Shown here: positions 1,065-7,230 of the stretch, one piece after another | Layout: the number at the start of each line of letters is the position of its first letter | Numbering within the stretch: position 1 is the stretch's first letter | NCBI GenBank assembly: GCA_017400025.1 | Contig: JAFQAF010000360.1 | Location: forward strand, 1-7,254 | Source: Oscillospiraceae bacterium | GTDB taxonomy: Bacteria > Bacillota_A > Clostridia > Oscillospirales > Ruminococcaceae | Length of the DNA stretch: 7,254 nt | Direction of reading: 5' to 3' | Translations under genes and position numbers: made by a program | Notes under the pieces: model-generated | Seen by the model: the letters and a program-made list of their open reading frames with translations, nothing else | Told to the model about the DNA's origin: nothing | Databases searched by the model: none

Positions 1065-2732
1065 ATGAAAATAGTTCTTTGCAGTATCAACAGCAAATAT
1101 ATTCACTCATCCTTGGCGGTATGGTATCTGCTTGCAGCAGCAAAGCAGTCCGGCACAGCCCACGAGGTAAAAGTAGTTGAAAGTACAATAAACAGCCAGG
1201 TAGAGGATATAGTTGCGGCAGTTATAGCTGAAAAACCGGATGCAGTGGGTTTTTCTGCATACATATGGAATATTGAATATGTCCGAAAGGCTGCACATAC
1301 CATGAAGCTGATAAATCCGGATATCAGAATTTTTCTGGGTGGCCCGGAAGCAAGTTATGATGCCGAAGCACTTCTTGAAAATGATTATATTGACTGGATA
1401 ATAAAAGGTGAAGGGGAGGCCCCTTTCATACAGCTGCTGAAGGATAACTTTTCAGCGCCTGTAAAAACTGTTCTCAGCGGACCATGCCTGCCTTATATCA
1501 ACCCATATACGGAGGAATATATGGCGGCACTGAATGGCAGAATTGCCTATCTGGAAACAAGCAGAGGCTGCCCGTTCAGCTGTGGATTCTGCCTTTCCGG
1601 CCGCGATGAAACAGTGCGCTTTTTTGATATGGAGGAAAACAAAAGAAATATAGTTCTCCTTGCAAACTCCGGTACAAAAACTGTAAAGTTTGTGGACAGG
1701 ACCTTCAACTGCAATGATAAAAGAGCCCTTGAAATATTCAGATTCATCACTGAAGAAAGAGCAAAAGGAAATATCCCGGCAGATGTTATTTTCCACTGTG
1801 AAGTGGAAACTGACCTGTTTACACAGTCCACACTGGACTATCTGAAAACAGTCCCTGCAGGCCTTTTCCAGTTTGAGGCAGGCTTGCAGAGTTTCAATGT
1901 GGAAACACTCAAAGCGGTAAACCGCCGCACTGATATGGAAAAACTGGTGCATAATCTGAAGGAAATTGTTTCCGGCGGCAATATCCACCTGCATATAGAC
2001 CTTATTGCAGGGCTTCCTCACGAAGATTTTGCCTGCTTTGCCCGCAGCTTCAACCAGGCCTATGAAATAAATGCAAATGTAATTCAGCTGGGCTTTCTGA
2101 AACTGCTGAAAGGTTCAACCCTTGAGAAGGAAAAGGAAAAATATAATTACAAAAGCTGGAATTATGCGCCGTATCAGGTAGTCAGCTGTGACAGCATTTC
2201 ATACAGTGACCTCAATGAGCTGAAAAAATGTGAGGACGCTGTTGAACGTCTTCTCAACAGCGGCAAATTCCCTCATACAGTGCCTTATCTCATAAATGAA
2301 ACCGGATTAGAGCCTTTTGATTTCTTCTATAAATTCGGCTGTTATGTGGCGGAGAGTGGCATTAAAAATCCATCACTTGAAAAGTATGCCTTTATGCTGT
2401 ATGAATATTTTACCGGAGAATTCGGCACAGATAAAAAACAGCTGAGGGATGTTATGGTAACTGACAGAATTATCACAGACAACACAGGCCGCCTGTTCGG
2501 TTTTACACATATTCCGGATAAAAATTTCAGAAAAATAACAACAGCCCTGCGCCAGCAGACTGTTAATATCTTTGACAATCAGCGGGAAAAATCTGCAAAA
2601 GGGAAGATTGGTTTTGCGGTGCTTTACACCTGCGGCAAAGTTATTCTTGCGGATTATACGGAAAAAAATCCGGTTACAGACCAGTTCCGGTACAGAATAG
2701 CAGAGCTTGATGATTTTCTGCAGGAAAAATAA
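1065..2732 (+). CDS. B12-binding-domain radical SAM protein (DUF4080-type)
   Basis: A 555-residue cytosolic protein. Residues 1-125 look like a Rossmann-type cobalamin-binding domain (MKIVLCSINSKYIHSSLAVW at the start, FLGGPEAS at 90-97, KGEGEAPF at 114-121). The radical SAM core follows, with the cluster-binding motif C169-x3-C173-x2-C176 inside LETSRGCPFSCGFC. Later core strands include FQFEAGLQS (268-276) and HIDLIAGLPHED (310-321). The C-terminal part, from about residue 360, matches what I recall of DUF4080, a domain of unknown function found after this core. The cobalamin domain lacks the canonical DxHxxG motif, though a His (H14) lies nearby. Family knowledge supports S-adenosylmethionine cleavage at a [4Fe-4S] cluster and possibly B12-dependent methyl transfer or rearrangement. 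The substrate is unknown and the neighbours do not reveal it. The ATG at 1065 is supported by GGAG six bases upstream and by the N-terminal motif beginning immediately. The gene is intact and appears monocistronic. Confidence 0.9.
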   Translation: MKIVLCSINSKYIHSSLAVWYLLAAAKQSGTAHEVKVVESTINSQVEDIVAAVIAEKPDAVGFSAYIWNIEYVRKAAHTMKLINPDIRIFLGGPEASYDAEALLENDYIDWIIKGEGEAPFIQLLKDNFSAPVKTVLSGPCLPYINPYTEEYMAALNGRIAYLETSRGCPFSCGFCLSGRDETVRFFDMEENKRNIVLLANSGTKTVKFVDRTFNCNDKRALEIFRFITEERAKGNIPADVIFHCEVETDLFTQSTLDYLKTVPAGLFQFEAGLQSFNVETLKAVNRRTDMEKLVHNLKEIVSGGNIHLHIDLIAGLPHEDFACFARSFNQAYEINANVIQLGFLKLLKGSTLEKEKEKYNYKSWNYAPYQVVSCDSISYSDLNELKKCEDAVERLLNSGKFPHTVPYLINETGLEPFDFFYKFGCYVAESGIKNPSLEKYAFMLYEYFTGEFGTDKKQLRDVMVTDRIITDNTGRLFGFTHIPDKNFRKITTALRQQTVNIFDNQREKSAKGKIGFAVLYTCGKVILADYTEKNPVTDQFRYRIAELDDFLQEK

Positions 2733-2779
2733 TTTGAAAATCGAATAATTTGAATTTAAAATAGTTTGAACCTCAAAGT
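2731..2779. promoter_or_regulatory. Three tandem FabT-like operator boxes, 16-bp period
   Basis: Three 17-bp boxes of the form A-N-TTTGA-N3-TCAAA-N-T are tiled at 2731-2747, 2747-2763 and 2763-2779, so each starts exactly 16 bp after the last and shares one base with its neighbour. Box 3 has a perfect TTTGA-ACC-TCAAA core. Box 1 (TTTGA-AAA-TCGAA) and box 2 (TTTGA-ATT-TAAAA) each have one mismatch in the right half-site. A 10-bp direct repeat ATAATTTGAA recurs at 2729, 2745 and, with one change, 2761. The array begins within the stop codon of the upstream gene and ends just before the promoter of the MarR gene. The dyads resemble the FabT box as I remember it from streptococci. Binding by the adjacent MarR protein is inference. 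Confidence 0.7.
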
Positions 2780-2781
2780 TT

Positions 2782-2813
2782 TTAACATTTCTATCACATT
2801 TAGGTACTATAAT
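2782..2813 (+). promoter_or_regulatory. Promoter of the MarR-degV operon
   Basis: A consensus -10 TATAAT lies at 2808-2813, predicting a start near 2820 and a leader of about 33 bases. The -35 is poor: the best match, TTAACA at 2782-2787, would need a 20-bp spacer, while the hexamer at the ideal 17-bp spacing (2785-2790, ACATTT) matches badly. Such a promoter may be weak or depend on a bound regulator. It lies between operator box 3 and box 4. Confidence 0.6.
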
Positions 2814-2818
2814 GTGAT
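2793..2818. repeat. Perfect 8-bp inverted repeat enclosing the -10
   Basis: ATCACATT (2793-2800) and AATGTGAT (2811-2818) are exact reverse complements around a 10-base spacer, and the second arm overlaps the TATAAT box. Its sequence differs from the TTTGA boxes around it, so it could be a site for another regulator. It is nested inside the larger 2758-2841 inverted repeat and could form the tip of a cruciform or a read-through RNA hairpin. Its function is unknown. Confidence 0.5.
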
Positions 2819-2819
2819 T

Positions 2820-2836
2820 ACTTTGATATTCAAACT
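2820..2836. promoter_or_regulatory. Fourth FabT-like operator box, at the transcription start
   Basis: ACTTTGATATTCAAACT has a perfect TTTGA-TAT-TCAAA core and the same A-N...N-T flanks as the upstream boxes. It covers roughly +1 to +17 of the predicted transcript, just before the ribosome binding site at 2844-2847. A repressor bound here would block initiation or early elongation. Together with box 3 it forms an extended inverted repeat: 2758-2770 pairs perfectly with 2829-2841, and 2773-2779 pairs with 2820-2826. Confidence 0.7.
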
Positions 2837-2843
2837 ATTTTTT

Positions 2844-2847
2844 GAGG
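2844..2847 (+). promoter_or_regulatory. Ribosome binding site fixing the MarR start
   Basis: GAGG five bases before the ATG at 2853. This supports 2853 over an in-frame TTG at 2766, which would add 29 hydrophobic residues (translated from the operator region) and lies upstream of the predicted transcription start. Confidence 0.8.
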
Positions 2848-2852
2848 TAAAA

Positions 2853-3305
2853 ATGGAAAAAATCAAACATGACATCAATACGTTTCTTGTAGATGCTTTT
2901 AACAGCCTTATGCAGATTGAGGAAAACTATCTTCAGAAAGGTGCTTTCAGAAATATATCTGTAAAGGAAATGCATCTTATTGACGCGGTGGTGAAATTAA
3001 AAGAAAACAATATAGCAAAACAGATTGCCAAAGAGCTGAATATTACACAAAGCTCTCTTACTACTGCAGTAAACACCCTGGAAAAGAAGGGGATGTTGGT
3101 GAGAAAGCCTGATGAGAAAGACAGACGAATAGTAAAAATATGTGCTACAGAAAAAGCCAGGGAAGCATACGAGCTTCATAAAAAATTCCATCAGGAGCTT
3201 GTGGACACTGTGGTAAACGAACTGACCGAACGGGAACTCAATGCGTTTGTGGACGGTCTGAACAAAGTACGCTATTTCTTTGCCGATAAAAAGAACGGCA
3301 AATGA
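2853..3305 (+). CDS. fabT: MarR-family transcriptional regulator, FabT-like
   Basis: A 150-residue protein of normal MarR length. N-terminal helices form the dimer region. The winged helix-turn-helix runs from about residue 52 to 95: ENNIAKQIAKELNITQSSLT leads into the recognition helix, NTLEKKGMLVRK follows, and the wing carries the diagnostic DEKDRR at 87-92. The N-terminal stretch ISVKEMHLIDAV, the following HTH and the later LHKKFHQELVD closely resemble streptococcal FabT as I remember it. FabT represses fatty-acid synthesis genes and binds DNA more tightly with long-chain acyl-ACP. Two perfect and two near-perfect FabT-like boxes flank its promoter, which suggests autoregulation. The gene is 16 bp upstream of a DegV fatty-acid-binding protein and probably shares its transcript. 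MarR-family assignment is firm. The FabT assignment is a strong inference rather than proven, since a close MarR paralogue could have another ligand. Confidence 0.9.
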   Translation: MEKIKHDINTFLVDAFNSLMQIEENYLQKGAFRNISVKEMHLIDAVVKLKENNIAKQIAKELNITQSSLTTAVNTLEKKGMLVRKPDEKDRRIVKICATEKAREAYELHKKFHQELVDTVVNELTERELNAFVDGLNKVRYFFADKKNGK

Positions 3306-3321: not shown

Positions 3322-4161
3322 ATGAAAACAGTTATTATTACAGACTCAACTTGTGATATTTCAAAAGAACAGCTGGATATTCTGAATGTGGAGGTAGTGC
3401 CGCTTTCAGTTAATTTCGGAGACAAAAGTTACCTTGACGGCATAGATATAACCAAAAAAGAGTTTTTCAGAATGCTTGCAGAAAGCAGCGAAAACCCTAC
3501 AACAAGCCAGCCTTCACCGGAATCTTTCCTGGAAGTTTTCAGCCGCCACAAAGAGCAGGGAAATGAGGTTGTCTTTATCGGGCTTTCTTCTGTTCTCAGC
3601 GGTACATGCCAGTCTGCACGCATTGCAAAGGAGATGTGTGATTACGATAAAATCCATATAGTTGACTCCCTCAGCGCCACAGCAGGTATGGAACTGCTTG
3701 TAAGAGTGGCCTGCGATATGAGAGACAAAGGTGAAGATGCTGCTGCAATAGCAGAAAAAATCACAGCACTTGTGCCAAAAGTAAGGCTGTTTGCTGTAGT
3801 TGATACCCTTAAATATCTTGTAAGAGGGGGCCGTCTTTCCAAGGCTGCAGGTCTTATCGGCGGCGCACTTGGCGTAAAGCCGCTTATAACAGTTGCAGAC
3901 GGTTCGGTTGTATCCATAGGCACAGCACGTGGTCAGAAGGGTGCATTTGACAAACTGGCAAATATCGTGGAAGAAGCAGATATAGATACATCCCTGCCGG
4001 TAATTCTCACTTATACAGAATCACAGGAAAATATGCATATGTTTGAAGCATATCTTATGGAAAAAGGTATGAAATTTGACTGGATTTACAGTGAGGTAGG
4101 CAGTGTAATCGGCACACACGTAGGCCCTGGCGCATATGCTGCAGTATATTTTGTAAAATAA
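3322..4161 (+). CDS. degV: DegV-family fatty-acid-binding protein (FakB-type)
   Basis: A 279-residue cytosolic protein, complete and of typical family length. It opens with the family hallmark MKTVIITDSTCDIS. It then has PTTSQPSPESF (59-69), the lipid-binding motif that includes the conserved TSQPS, and GLSSVLSGT (87-95). The middle carries DTLKYLVRGGRLSK (161-174) with GGALGVKPLI (180-189). The C-terminus has GSVIGTHVGPGA (260-271). DegV proteins bind one fatty acid. In the FakA/FakB pathway they present it to the kinase FakA, and the acyl-phosphate is used for phospholipid synthesis. No FakA gene is in this window. The gene follows a FabT-like regulator after 16 bp and has no promoter of its own that I can see, so it is probably the second gene of that operon. 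Fatty-acid preference cannot be told from the sequence. No strong terminator with a U-tract follows. Confidence 0.95.
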   Translation: MKTVIITDSTCDISKEQLDILNVEVVPLSVNFGDKSYLDGIDITKKEFFRMLAESSENPTTSQPSPESFLEVFSRHKEQGNEVVFIGLSSVLSGTCQSARIAKEMCDYDKIHIVDSLSATAGMELLVRVACDMRDKGEDAAAIAEKITALVPKVRLFAVVDTLKYLVRGGRLSKAAGLIGGALGVKPLITVADGSVVSIGTARGQKGAFDKLANIVEEADIDTSLPVILTYTESQENMHMFEAYLMEKGMKFDWIYSEVGSVIGTHVGPGAYAAVYFVK

Positions 4162-4222: not shown

Positions 4223-4256
4223 TTTAGGGGCGTCGTGGTATTGCGACTCCCCTAAA
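4223..4256. repeat. Large imperfect palindrome upstream of hsdR
   Basis: TTTAGGGG (4223-4230) pairs with CCCCTAAA (4249-4256). After one mismatch (C4231/T4248), GTCG (4232-4235) pairs with CGAC (4244-4247), leaving a short GGTATT-containing loop. As RNA this would be a stable hairpin, but on the + strand it is followed by AATTATGG rather than a U-tract, so it is at best a weak terminator for degV. Its right arm contains the -35 of the hsdR promoter, so it could be an operator. Minus-strand read-through would meet a more T-rich tail, but no minus-strand gene needs a terminator here. Confidence 0.7.
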
Positions 4257-4329: not shown

Positions 4330-7230
4330 ATGGGAAAGAAATTATCTGAATACGATGTAGAGAATTTCTTCGTTGAACGACTGGAAGAAATGGGCTACAC
4401 TTACGCCAACATTAATCACTATGAAGATTTGTTGGTTAATTTTCGTGTTCAATTTTGTAAATTAAATGAAAAAGCTCTTGTTGAAAAGAAAGGCGTAGCA
4501 GAACTGTCCGATGCAGAATTTAATAGAATTCTTATCCGTCTGGAAAACCACTCTGTCTATGAGTCTGCAAGAATTTTAAGAGAACAGTGGGTTCTTACGT
4601 TGGACAATGGCAAAACTGTATATGTAAGATTTTTAACCAACGACCCAGCTCAAAACTTTTTTCAAGTTGCAAACCAGATAACAATGGATAAAGAACACAG
4701 AAATGATGTTCTGTATAAAAACCGTTATGATGTTTCTCTTCTCATTAATGGTCTTCCACTGGTACAGGTTGAACTGAAGCGTCCGGGTGTAGAAATCAAC
4801 GAAGCTATCAACCAGATAAATAGATACAGGGCACATTCTTTTAAAGGTCTGTTTAATTACATTCAGGTTTTTGTTGTATCCAATTCTGTACAGACAAAGT
4901 ATTTCGCAAATGCAAACTTGAGAAAAGCAGATGGTGAAATTAACAATATTCTGAAGTCTCTTGTTTTCTATTGGACAGACGATGAAAACCGCCGTATCAA
5001 TAAGCTTAATGATTTCACAACAGCATTTCTTGAAAAATTTGCAATTACTGAAATGCTGACCAAATACTTTGTGATTAAGGAAACAGAACCTGTTCTGATG
5101 GTTATGAGACCTTATCAGATTTATGCAGTAAAGAAAGCCCTGGACCGTATTAAACTGAGCAATATGAACGGTTATGTGTTTCATACAACTGGTTCCGGTA
5201 AAACACTGACTTCATTTAAGCTGGCTACACTCCTAAGAGACGATAAAAGCATTGATAAAGTATTTTTCCTGATTGACCGTAGCGACTTGGACGACCAGAC
5301 TGTAGAAGAATACAACAGTTTTGAAAAGGACTGTGTAGACAACACAGATAACACATATACTCTTGTAAATGCCATCAATAACTCCAGTAAAACATTGATT
5401 ATTACAACCATTCAAAAGATGGCAACAGCCATTAGGAACGATAAATACAGAGTGATGATTGAAGCCCTGAGAGATAAAAAGTGTATTTTCATTATCGATG
5501 AATGTCATCGCTCCCAGTTTGGTAAGATGCATACACAGATTGAAAAATTCTTCAATAACGCCAATTACATTGGTTTTACTGGTACACCTATCTTTGAAGA
5601 AAATAAATCTGCAGACAGAAGAACCACAGCAGACGTTTTCAAGACTGCAGCAAATGTAGATTCCTGCATCCACAAATATATGATAAAAGAAGCTATTGCT
5701 GACGGCAATGTACTTCGCTTCTCTGTAGAATATTTAAGAAGTATCAATATTAAGTCTACACAGGACCCAACAATTGATGTTGATAAACTTGATGACCCGG
5801 AATACTGTAAACGTCACAACATTGATATGAACGGGCTGTATCACGAACCAGAGAGATTTGAAAGAATCACAAAAGATATCCTGAATAGCCTCGAAAAACA
5901 CACAAGACCACAGGGCAAAGATGTTTATACAGCTATTTTTGCAGTTGACAAAATTGAAACCCTGATGGAATACTACAGAAACTTCAAGAAGTTCAATGAT
6001 AAAGGCTATAAAGTAGCAGCTATCTTCACTTATGGTGTAAATGAAGACATGGATGGTCATAGCGCACATTCCAGAGAATATCTTGACGAGTGTATTTCTG
6101 ACTACAATGAAATGTTTGGTACAAACTTCGATTCTTCTAACTTTGATGGCTACCGTGTAGATATCAGTAAGAGAATGAAACAGAAGAACATCCCACAGAT
6201 TGACCTTCTTCTCGTAGTCAATATGTTCCTTACCGGTTTTGACTCAAAGCCTACAAATTCCCTGTTCCTTGATAAAGACTTGCAGTGGCACTCATTACTT
6301 CAGGCATACAGCCGTACAAACCGTGTAGATAAACCGACTAAACTCTTTGGCCAGATTATCACCTACCGTAACATAAAGAAAGCTCAGGACGATGCATTGA
6401 AGCTGTTCTCAGGTGATAGCAACCCTAATGAATTTTTGCTTCAGTCTTATGACTATTACACAGCAGAATTCCGCAAACAGGTTGAAGCTCTCCGCAAAAT
6501 TTCTCCAACTGGTGAAGATGCCGGATATATTGTTGATGAAGATGAAAAGAAAAGCTATGTTCTTGCTTTTCGTCTTATCATCCACACTCTTGCGACACTT
6601 AAAACATTCTCCCGTTTTGACTGGGAAGACCTGAAAATATTCCTTGATGAAGATGAATTTGAAGAATACAAGTCTTGGTATCTCACTTTCTATGACGAAA
6701 TGAAACGTGACAGAACCGGCAAAGAAACTGTTCTGGTCGATGTAAACTTTGATATTGAACTTATCCGTACAGATAAAATCAATGTGGTATATATTCTGAA
6801 CCTTCTTAAAGAAGTAAATCGCAAGGATAAGAAAGCCATGGAACAGTCTGTTGATTTGATTCTCCGTGAAATTGAACGTTCTGACAACGAAAATCTTCGC
6901 TATAAGAGCAATATTATGAAAGAGTTCATCACAACACGTTTCTTTGAATTGGACCCAGAAGAAGACCTTATTGAAGCTTTTAGCGATTATCTGGTAGAAG
7001 CAAGAACAGCTAAAATTGAAGAATTTGCAACTGCACATTCAATAGAAAAAGAATTGATAGAAAGCATTATGACTGATTATCAGTGCAATGAAAGAGCAGT
7101 AACAAAAGAAACTCTCCGTAAAATGCTTCTCCCACTTAATCTGGGGCTTATTAAAACCACAAAACTTATTAACGACATTCTTTTCTTCGTAAAAGAAATG
7201 TACAACACATTTACAGCTGCAGGCGAATAA
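4330..7230 (+). CDS. hsdR: Type I restriction endonuclease, R (restriction/translocation) subunit
   Basis: A complete 966-residue motor-nuclease subunit that, with HsdM and HsdS, translocates and cleaves unmodified foreign DNA. The N-terminal nuclease domain has Asp134, Glu148-x-Lys150 (in QVELKRP) and a Q162-x3-Y166 motif; the D/E-x-K/Q spacing equals that of EcoR124I as I remember it. The SF2 motor follows: Walker A TTGSGKT (286-292), motif Ia around FFLIDRSDLDDQ (312-323), Walker B DECH (390-393), motif III FTGTP (416-420), motif V LTGFDSK (634-640) and motif VI QAYSRTNR (658-665). The last 260 residues are helical and charged, as expected for the HsdM-contacting C-terminus. All catalytic motifs are intact, so the protein is probably active if partners exist. 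The ATG at 4330 has a GG-rich site nine bases upstream. No hsdM or hsdS is visible in the window. They may lie downstream, where only 24 bases remain. GC content appears lower than in gap, consistent with an accessory gene. Confidence 0.97.
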   Translation: MGKKLSEYDVENFFVERLEEMGYTYANINHYEDLLVNFRVQFCKLNEKALVEKKGVAELSDAEFNRILIRLENHSVYESARILREQWVLTLDNGKTVYVRFLTNDPAQNFFQVANQITMDKEHRNDVLYKNRYDVSLLINGLPLVQVELKRPGVEINEAINQINRYRAHSFKGLFNYIQVFVVSNSVQTKYFANANLRKADGEINNILKSLVFYWTDDENRRINKLNDFTTAFLEKFAITEMLTKYFVIKETEPVLMVMRPYQIYAVKKALDRIKLSNMNGYVFHTTGSGKTLTSFKLATLLRDDKSIDKVFFLIDRSDLDDQTVEEYNSFEKDCVDNTDNTYTLVNAINNSSKTLIITTIQKMATAIRNDKYRVMIEALRDKKCIFIIDECHRSQFGKMHTQIEKFFNNANYIGFTGTPIFEENKSADRRTTADVFKTAANVDSCIHKYMIKEAIADGNVLRFSVEYLRSINIKSTQDPTIDVDKLDDPEYCKRHNIDMNGLYHEPERFERITKDILNSLEKHTRPQGKDVYTAIFAVDKIETLMEYYRNFKKFNDKGYKVAAIFTYGVNEDMDGHSAHSREYLDECISDYNEMFGTNFDSSNFDGYRVDISKRMKQKNIPQIDLLLVVNMFLTGFDSKPTNSLFLDKDLQWHSLLQAYSRTNRVDKPTKLFGQIITYRNIKKAQDDALKLFSGDSNPNEFLLQSYDYYTAEFRKQVEALRKISPTGEDAGYIVDEDEKKSYVLAFRLIIHTLATLKTFSRFDWEDLKIFLDEDEFEEYKSWYLTFYDEMKRDRTGKETVLVDVNFDIELIRTDKINVVYILNLLKEVNRKDKKAMEQSVDLILREIERSDNENLRYKSNIMKEFITTRFFELDPEEDLIEAFSDYLVEARTAKIEEFATAHSIEKELIESIMTDYQCNERAVTKETLRKMLLPLNLGLIKTTKLINDILFFVKEMYNTFTAAGE

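Follow-up and report, generated by a model that had tools for sequence, protein, structure and literature searches.

A promoter bracket and a 16-bp lattice of FabT-type boxes before the genes of a FabT-like regulator and a FakB-type protein in an Oscillospiraceae bacterium

Genes and FabT-type boxes of the locus

The analysed DNA, referred to below as the window, was a 7,254-nucleotide stretch of an Oscillospiraceae genome (GCA_017400025.1, contig JAFQAF010000360.1). The following features were assigned, with no strand given for the boxes:

to 930, plus strand: GAPDH gene, end only (ORF and domain search)
1065-2732, plus strand: B12-binding radical-SAM gene with a DUF4080 domain, ending directly at box 1
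2731..2747: box 1, core TTTGAAAATCGAA, 1 mismatch; left end shared with the radical-SAM stop codon
2747..2763: box 2, one step of 16 bp from box 1; core TTTGAATTTAAAA with 1 mismatch
2763..2779: box 3, core without mismatch, a further 16 bp from box 2; forms the upstream side of the promoter bracket
2808..2813, plus strand: predicted -10 element TATAAT (from sequence)
2820..2836: box 4, core without mismatch, starting 57 bp from box 3; lies on the predicted start and closes the bracket downstream
2844..2847, plus strand: the MarR gene's likely ribosome-binding site, GAGG (from sequence)
2853..3305, plus strand: FabT-like MarR regulator, 150 aa (family models, PDB sequence and fold matches)
3322..4161, plus strand: DegV / FakB-type fatty-acid-binding protein, 279 aa (Pfam, NCBIfam, PDB match)
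4330-7230, plus strand: hsdR, complete type I restriction gene (domain search)

The MarR protein has a winged-helix fold closest to that of FabT, and its top PDB match, by sequence as well as by fold, was 6jbx, the pneumococcal FabT, which supports the proposal of a previous sequence-only reading that FabT-type boxes stand here at a FabT-like regulator. Among 14 NCBIfam models the FabT equivalog scored best with 124.4 bits, below its cut-off of 200 bits; full equivalog membership was rejected and the protein is named FabT-like. The Lactococcus lactis control genome likewise stayed below the cut-off, which may therefore be narrow. FabT-type palindromes are located at the MarR gene's own promoter. 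A fatty-acid synthesis operon was not found around the gene, the neighbours being the radical-SAM and DegV genes, and no fab gene was found in the window. The few named homologues of the regulator came from Oscillospiraceae or Ruminococcaceae MAGs. In a tree of 34 proteins, from which the L064 protein was left out, strong support was obtained only for the pairing of the window regulator with P0005; from three other MarR proteins, two were placed outside at 89/85 and one inside.

The DegV protein belongs to the DegV fold family (Pfam DegV, 282.3 bits) and its best PDB sequence match was 6dke, a FakB1 protein (6.5e-41). The score with the NCBIfam FakB1 equivalog was 155.2 bits, under the cut-off of 350; full membership was rejected and the protein is therefore called FakB-type, not FakB1. 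Its gene, absent from the sequence-only reading, follows the regulator gene after a gap of 16 bp, and the two are probably part of the same operon, as judged from their arrangement. A FakA gene was not found in the window, and neither hsdM nor hsdS was present beside hsdR. Between degV and hsdR, TTTAGGGG (4223-4230) was noticed by eye opposite CCCCTAAA (4249-4256), perhaps a terminator or a small repeat.

The four 17-bp boxes, with starts at 2731, 2747, 2763 and 2820 and with 1, 1, 0 and 0 mismatches to the TTTGA-N3-TCAAA core, were confirmed as the sequence-only reading had described them. The mismatches to the full 17-mer were 2, 2, 0 and 0, the values of boxes 1 and 2 being worse because 17-mers at a 16-bp step share one base. 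Five matches with up to 2 mismatches were detected in the whole window compared with 1.38 expected, the fifth being inside hsdR at 6746, and at least five were reached in 2 of 200 shuffles. Neither two perfect cores nor a trio of cores phased at 16 bp, allowing up to 2 mismatches, was seen among the 20,000 106-bp sequences simulated with a first-order Markov model for each composition, intergenic or that of the window. A matrix was also built from 42 boxes, all from outside the window and picked by their perfect core, so that it is unbiased at the flanks and the centre only. With this matrix the four best sites of the window were the four boxes (24.5, 18.8, 16.1 and 13.1), boxes 1 and 2 ranking third and fourth, and the next-best score was 9.5, in hsdR. 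At the positions unused in the picking, the matrix revealed a wider preference, T-A-N-TTTGA-N3-TCAAA-N-T-A. Chance AT-rich palindromes were rejected on the shuffle, Markov and matrix results. The 16-bp step corresponds to a computed 1.52 helical turns, about 189 degrees, and 32 bp to about 17 degrees; adjacent boxes therefore lie on opposite faces of the helix, and boxes 1 and 3 on the same face.

Counted from the first base of TATAAT (2808-2813), the core of box 4 begins 14 nt downstream, which places this box over the start site, itself predicted from sequence. The -35 element is weak, TTAACA (2782-2787) being spaced 17 nt from TACTAT (2805-2810) and 20 nt from TATAAT. As box 3 lies upstream of this promoter, the earlier suggestion that the two strong boxes flank it agrees with the predicted elements. 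A perfect 8-bp inverted repeat, ATCACATT-N10-AATGTGAT, extends across the -10 region (2793-2818) and may be a second operator or due to chance.

Recurrence of the two layouts in other genomes

Neither the bracket nor the lattice is unique to the genome of the window. In Subdoligranulum, two perfect cores precede the MarR gene at a distance of 58 bp, compared with 57 bp in the window. In both, the second core begins 14 nt downstream of the first base of TATAAT. The 215,073-bp record has no other perfect core (reversed control 0), and the GC content of the 12.4-kb locus is 58%. The comparison speaks partly against the sequence-only reading: boxes 3 and 4 were matched upstream of the Subdoligranulum MarR gene, but boxes 1 and 2 had no counterpart there. 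Subdoligranulum variabile was the sole relative found with the MarR-DegV order of the window, and its DegV was the best match to the window DegV in the plasmid collection (44.4%). In Lachnospira eligens, two perfect cores 60 bp apart bracket a degV promoter, surrounding TTGACA before an annotated degV that has no MarR neighbour; they were the only ones in 626,744 bp (control 0).

Among 392 Bacilli-type genomes, pairs of perfect cores 44 to 74 bp apart were detected at 16 places in 13 genomes (control 0). Seven places were read as brackets around a promoter-like sequence (L091, L092, L093, L094, L097, L099 and L104), three fall within a single repetitive gene of G064, and the other six are counted as spaced pairs only. 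In the six brackets measured, i.e. all but L099, the distance from the start of the -10 element to the second core was 14 to 16 nt. The genes beside six of the seven brackets were ACP-accB-accC, an accB-type gene, an enoyl reductase gene and a BirA-type regulator gene with BioY; the L097 sequence ends before its gene and was omitted from this list. L091 carries an extra 1-mismatch box 16 bp upstream of its 54-bp bracket, which is near the 16, 16 and 57 bp of the window. The fab operon on a Paucilactobacillus plasmid has two perfect boxes upstream, 50 bp apart; no -10 match was found near the second one by the measure used for the other brackets. FabT-type box clusters also adjoin birA-type and bioY genes at L099 (G083) and L031 (G234), which suggests that biotin supply is part of the FabT-type regulon in some Bacilli.

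The 16-bp step to which the sequence-only reading drew attention recurs as well. Pairs of perfect cores with a spacing of 13 to 43 bp were detected at 25 places in 23 of the 392 genomes (control 0), with exactly 16 bp at 10 of them; the order of G370 (11 of 90 genomes) added 6 double-core places, 4 at 16 bp. In the pooled Bacilli sample the step accounted for 14 of 31 close double-box places, a proportion inflated by near relatives, 7 of the 14 coming from one order; for the same reason the corresponding binomial value is too small to serve as a probability. All but one of the 14 were beside lipid or FabK-like genes: DegV genes at nine, accB with a divergent enoyl reductase at two and FabK-like NMO genes at two, with one unassigned. 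L051, one of the places with the step, lies between HlyIII and M28 peptidase genes. On a contig labelled as a Listeria phage, a FabT-like gene and fabH are likewise preceded by a pair of perfect boxes with the 16-bp spacing.

Triple arrays, searched with up to 2 mismatches to the pattern and one core base free, were present in three of the 245 Bacilli genomes scanned (control 0), two before degV-ACP and one before accB-accC. In the Clostridia, Acetoanaerobium noterae has a triple with 1, 0 and 1 mismatches upstream of an operon with the order accB, accC, accD, one further gene, the MarR gene, fabH and a FabK-like gene. The 2.6-Mb Acetoanaerobium record contained 26 perfect cores (7 in the reversed control). 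Since 19 of the 26 lie within ORFs, a perfect core is not in itself diagnostic of a target; only one of the 26, that at the acc-MarR-fab operon, had neighbours at 16 or 32 bp.

A match to the window MarR protein was present in 69 of 195 Bacilli-type genomes, and the neighbours were studied at 20 of these loci. At 10 of the 20, degV directly adjoins the MarR gene in the order degV-MarR on the same strand, and all 10 have a box near the start of degV, perfect in nine and with one mismatch in L006. The scan of genome contigs gave a single distant locus and no close Oscillospiraceae DNA for alignment. On the locus of a distant Fusobacterium MarR (25% identity), no box was present even when 1 mismatch was allowed. 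No relative was detected in the viral contigs with the MarR alignment or with DegV, and the triple-lattice pattern had 0 matches in them. On six human-faecal 'phage' contigs, the DegV genes had no perfect box, one contig having a 1-mismatch core downstream of DegV. Several sequences filed as plasmid or phages (L062, L065, L106-L111) look like bacterial chromosome: the 2.6 Mb 'plasmid' carries the acc-fab operon, and the 'phage' contigs carry a FabT-like gene with fabH, or degV.

The window joins two layouts that recur elsewhere, the promoter bracket and the exact 16-bp step. The arrangement looks real because similar layouts recur before the fatty-acid genes of distant bacteria.

One array or separate elements

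The boxes could belong to two promoters instead of one array. A second promoter-like sequence, TTGAAA (2734-2739), 17 nt, TAAAAT (2757-2762), runs through boxes 1 and 2 and would start transcription in box 3, as TATAAT would in box 4; in that case boxes 3 and 4 would each be an ordinary operator at a start site, and the hexamers of the upstream promoter would account for part of boxes 1 and 2. The sequence agrees with the consensus at 10 of 12 bases, and a box directly after a TAAAAT-like -10 element was seen by eye in L044, L045, L055 and L056, like box 3 here. However, the 3 promoter-like sites found compare with a shuffle mean of 1.8 (sd 1.2), and boxes 1 and 2 keep their third and fourth ranks with the outside matrix. 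This division into two promoters is considered unlikely.

About equally doubtful is that boxes 1 and 2 are a decayed, functionless tandem duplication of box 3 and that only boxes 3 and 4, as a bracket, are active. The single core mismatch in each of them, with the left halves kept and the right halves different, and the presence of the bracket alone in Subdoligranulum are consistent with such decay. The exact step with two perfect cores at the 14 other places, where the paired centres are mostly different, argues against it, as does the extra upstream box of L091.

The stop codon of the radical-SAM gene abuts box 1 and no terminator-like site was found on the plus strand in 2600-3000, so boxes 1 to 3 could serve as a roadblock to read-through from that gene. 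This role is improbable, as the other lattices sit at or after a promoter and not only behind an upstream gene, and the read-through is hypothetical. An attenuator hairpin formed by the inverted boxes in RNA was rejected as the main device on the shuffle-folding and Rfam evidence and is very improbable: the strand folds better than 200 of 200 shuffles (z -3.21) and the arms 2758-2779 and 2820-2841 are 91% complementary, but palindromic boxes pair mutually by nature, a transcript starting in box 4 would be without the upstream arm, and no Rfam match reached the gathering score.

Proposed control and its significance

Given the boxes, their phasing, the recurrence of both layouts at lipid genes, the kinship of the regulator to FabT and the gene order, the region can with good confidence be taken as the operator of a FabT-like repressor that would respond to acyl-ACP and control its own gene together with the FakB-type gene behind it, through a bracket and an upstream lattice. 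Autoregulation by the predicted repressor is likely, and its form is most likely a graded autorepression of the putatively co-transcribed regulator-FakB operon. A dimer binding to box 4 would cover the transcription start and one on box 3 would sit directly upstream of the promoter, so that the two would flank the polymerase site. Boxes 1 and 2 would lengthen box 3 upstream at 16-bp steps, and neighbouring dimers on opposite faces might pack side by side and cooperatively aid each other's occupancy. Acyl-ACP derived from outside fatty acids via the Fak pathway would strengthen the binding and close the operon, which would reopen as acyl-ACP falls. The arrangement of the boxes may in this way set how sharply the genes are switched off.

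The published excerpts give ANTTTGATTATCAAATT as the FabT operator probe of streptococci and enterococci and name one FabT site at fakB4 of Streptococcus pyogenes (PMC10138225); for Enterococcus, FabT sites at several promoters are described, the number per promoter not being stated in the part available, and binding is strengthened by acyl-ACP (PMC9083066). The window shares with these operators the palindrome, the MarR fold and the sites at the regulator's own promoter. In contrast, it has four boxes in a bracket and a 16-bp lattice, and its regulator is followed by FakB and not by fabH. As in the FabT-fabH-acpP fab operons (Cronan 2026, PMC13046290), and in that of the Paucilactobacillus plasmid, the regulator lies inside the operon that it presumably controls, whereas the window operon contains an uptake-type gene and no fab gene. 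In titles and abstracts, MntR and DtxR/IdeR, which are from other families, are also described with several dimers on neighbouring operators. MepR, which is not of a different family, likewise loads more than one dimer on operators lying side by side. None of MntR, DtxR/IdeR or MepR was the source of the exact 16-bp step across two or three palindromes. No description of FabT box arrays was found in the literature on FabT sites, arrays or Clostridia, covered mainly as titles and abstract openings.

According to the excerpt of PMC12594616, the fak genes of Enterococcus faecalis are not regulated by FabT, and control of a FakB gene by FabT was called 'perverse' by one group because fatty acids would block their own use. 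Control of FakB thus cannot be assumed from kinship. Known FabT operators are reported to be bound weakly, with deletion of fabT lifting transcription only 2- to 5-fold (PMC13046290, in part).

A broader proposal is offered tentatively, its chances being somewhat short of even. FabT-type repressors of the Bacillota may share an operator grammar of single start-site boxes, promoter brackets of about 54 to 60 bp and lattices in which two or three dimers sit on opposite faces at 16-bp steps; each promoter would combine these elements in its own way and so determine the sharpness of the acyl-ACP shut-off; control of the FakB uptake gene would then be old and widespread in the family and no oddity of a single streptococcus. 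The locus bears on the dispute whether FabT controls fatty-acid uptake. The linkage of regulator and FakB genes and the bracketed or phased boxes at lipid promoters of distant orders provide natural test cases for two questions: whether arrays make tight repression out of weak binding at single sites, and whether uptake is under FabT-type control in many bacteria.
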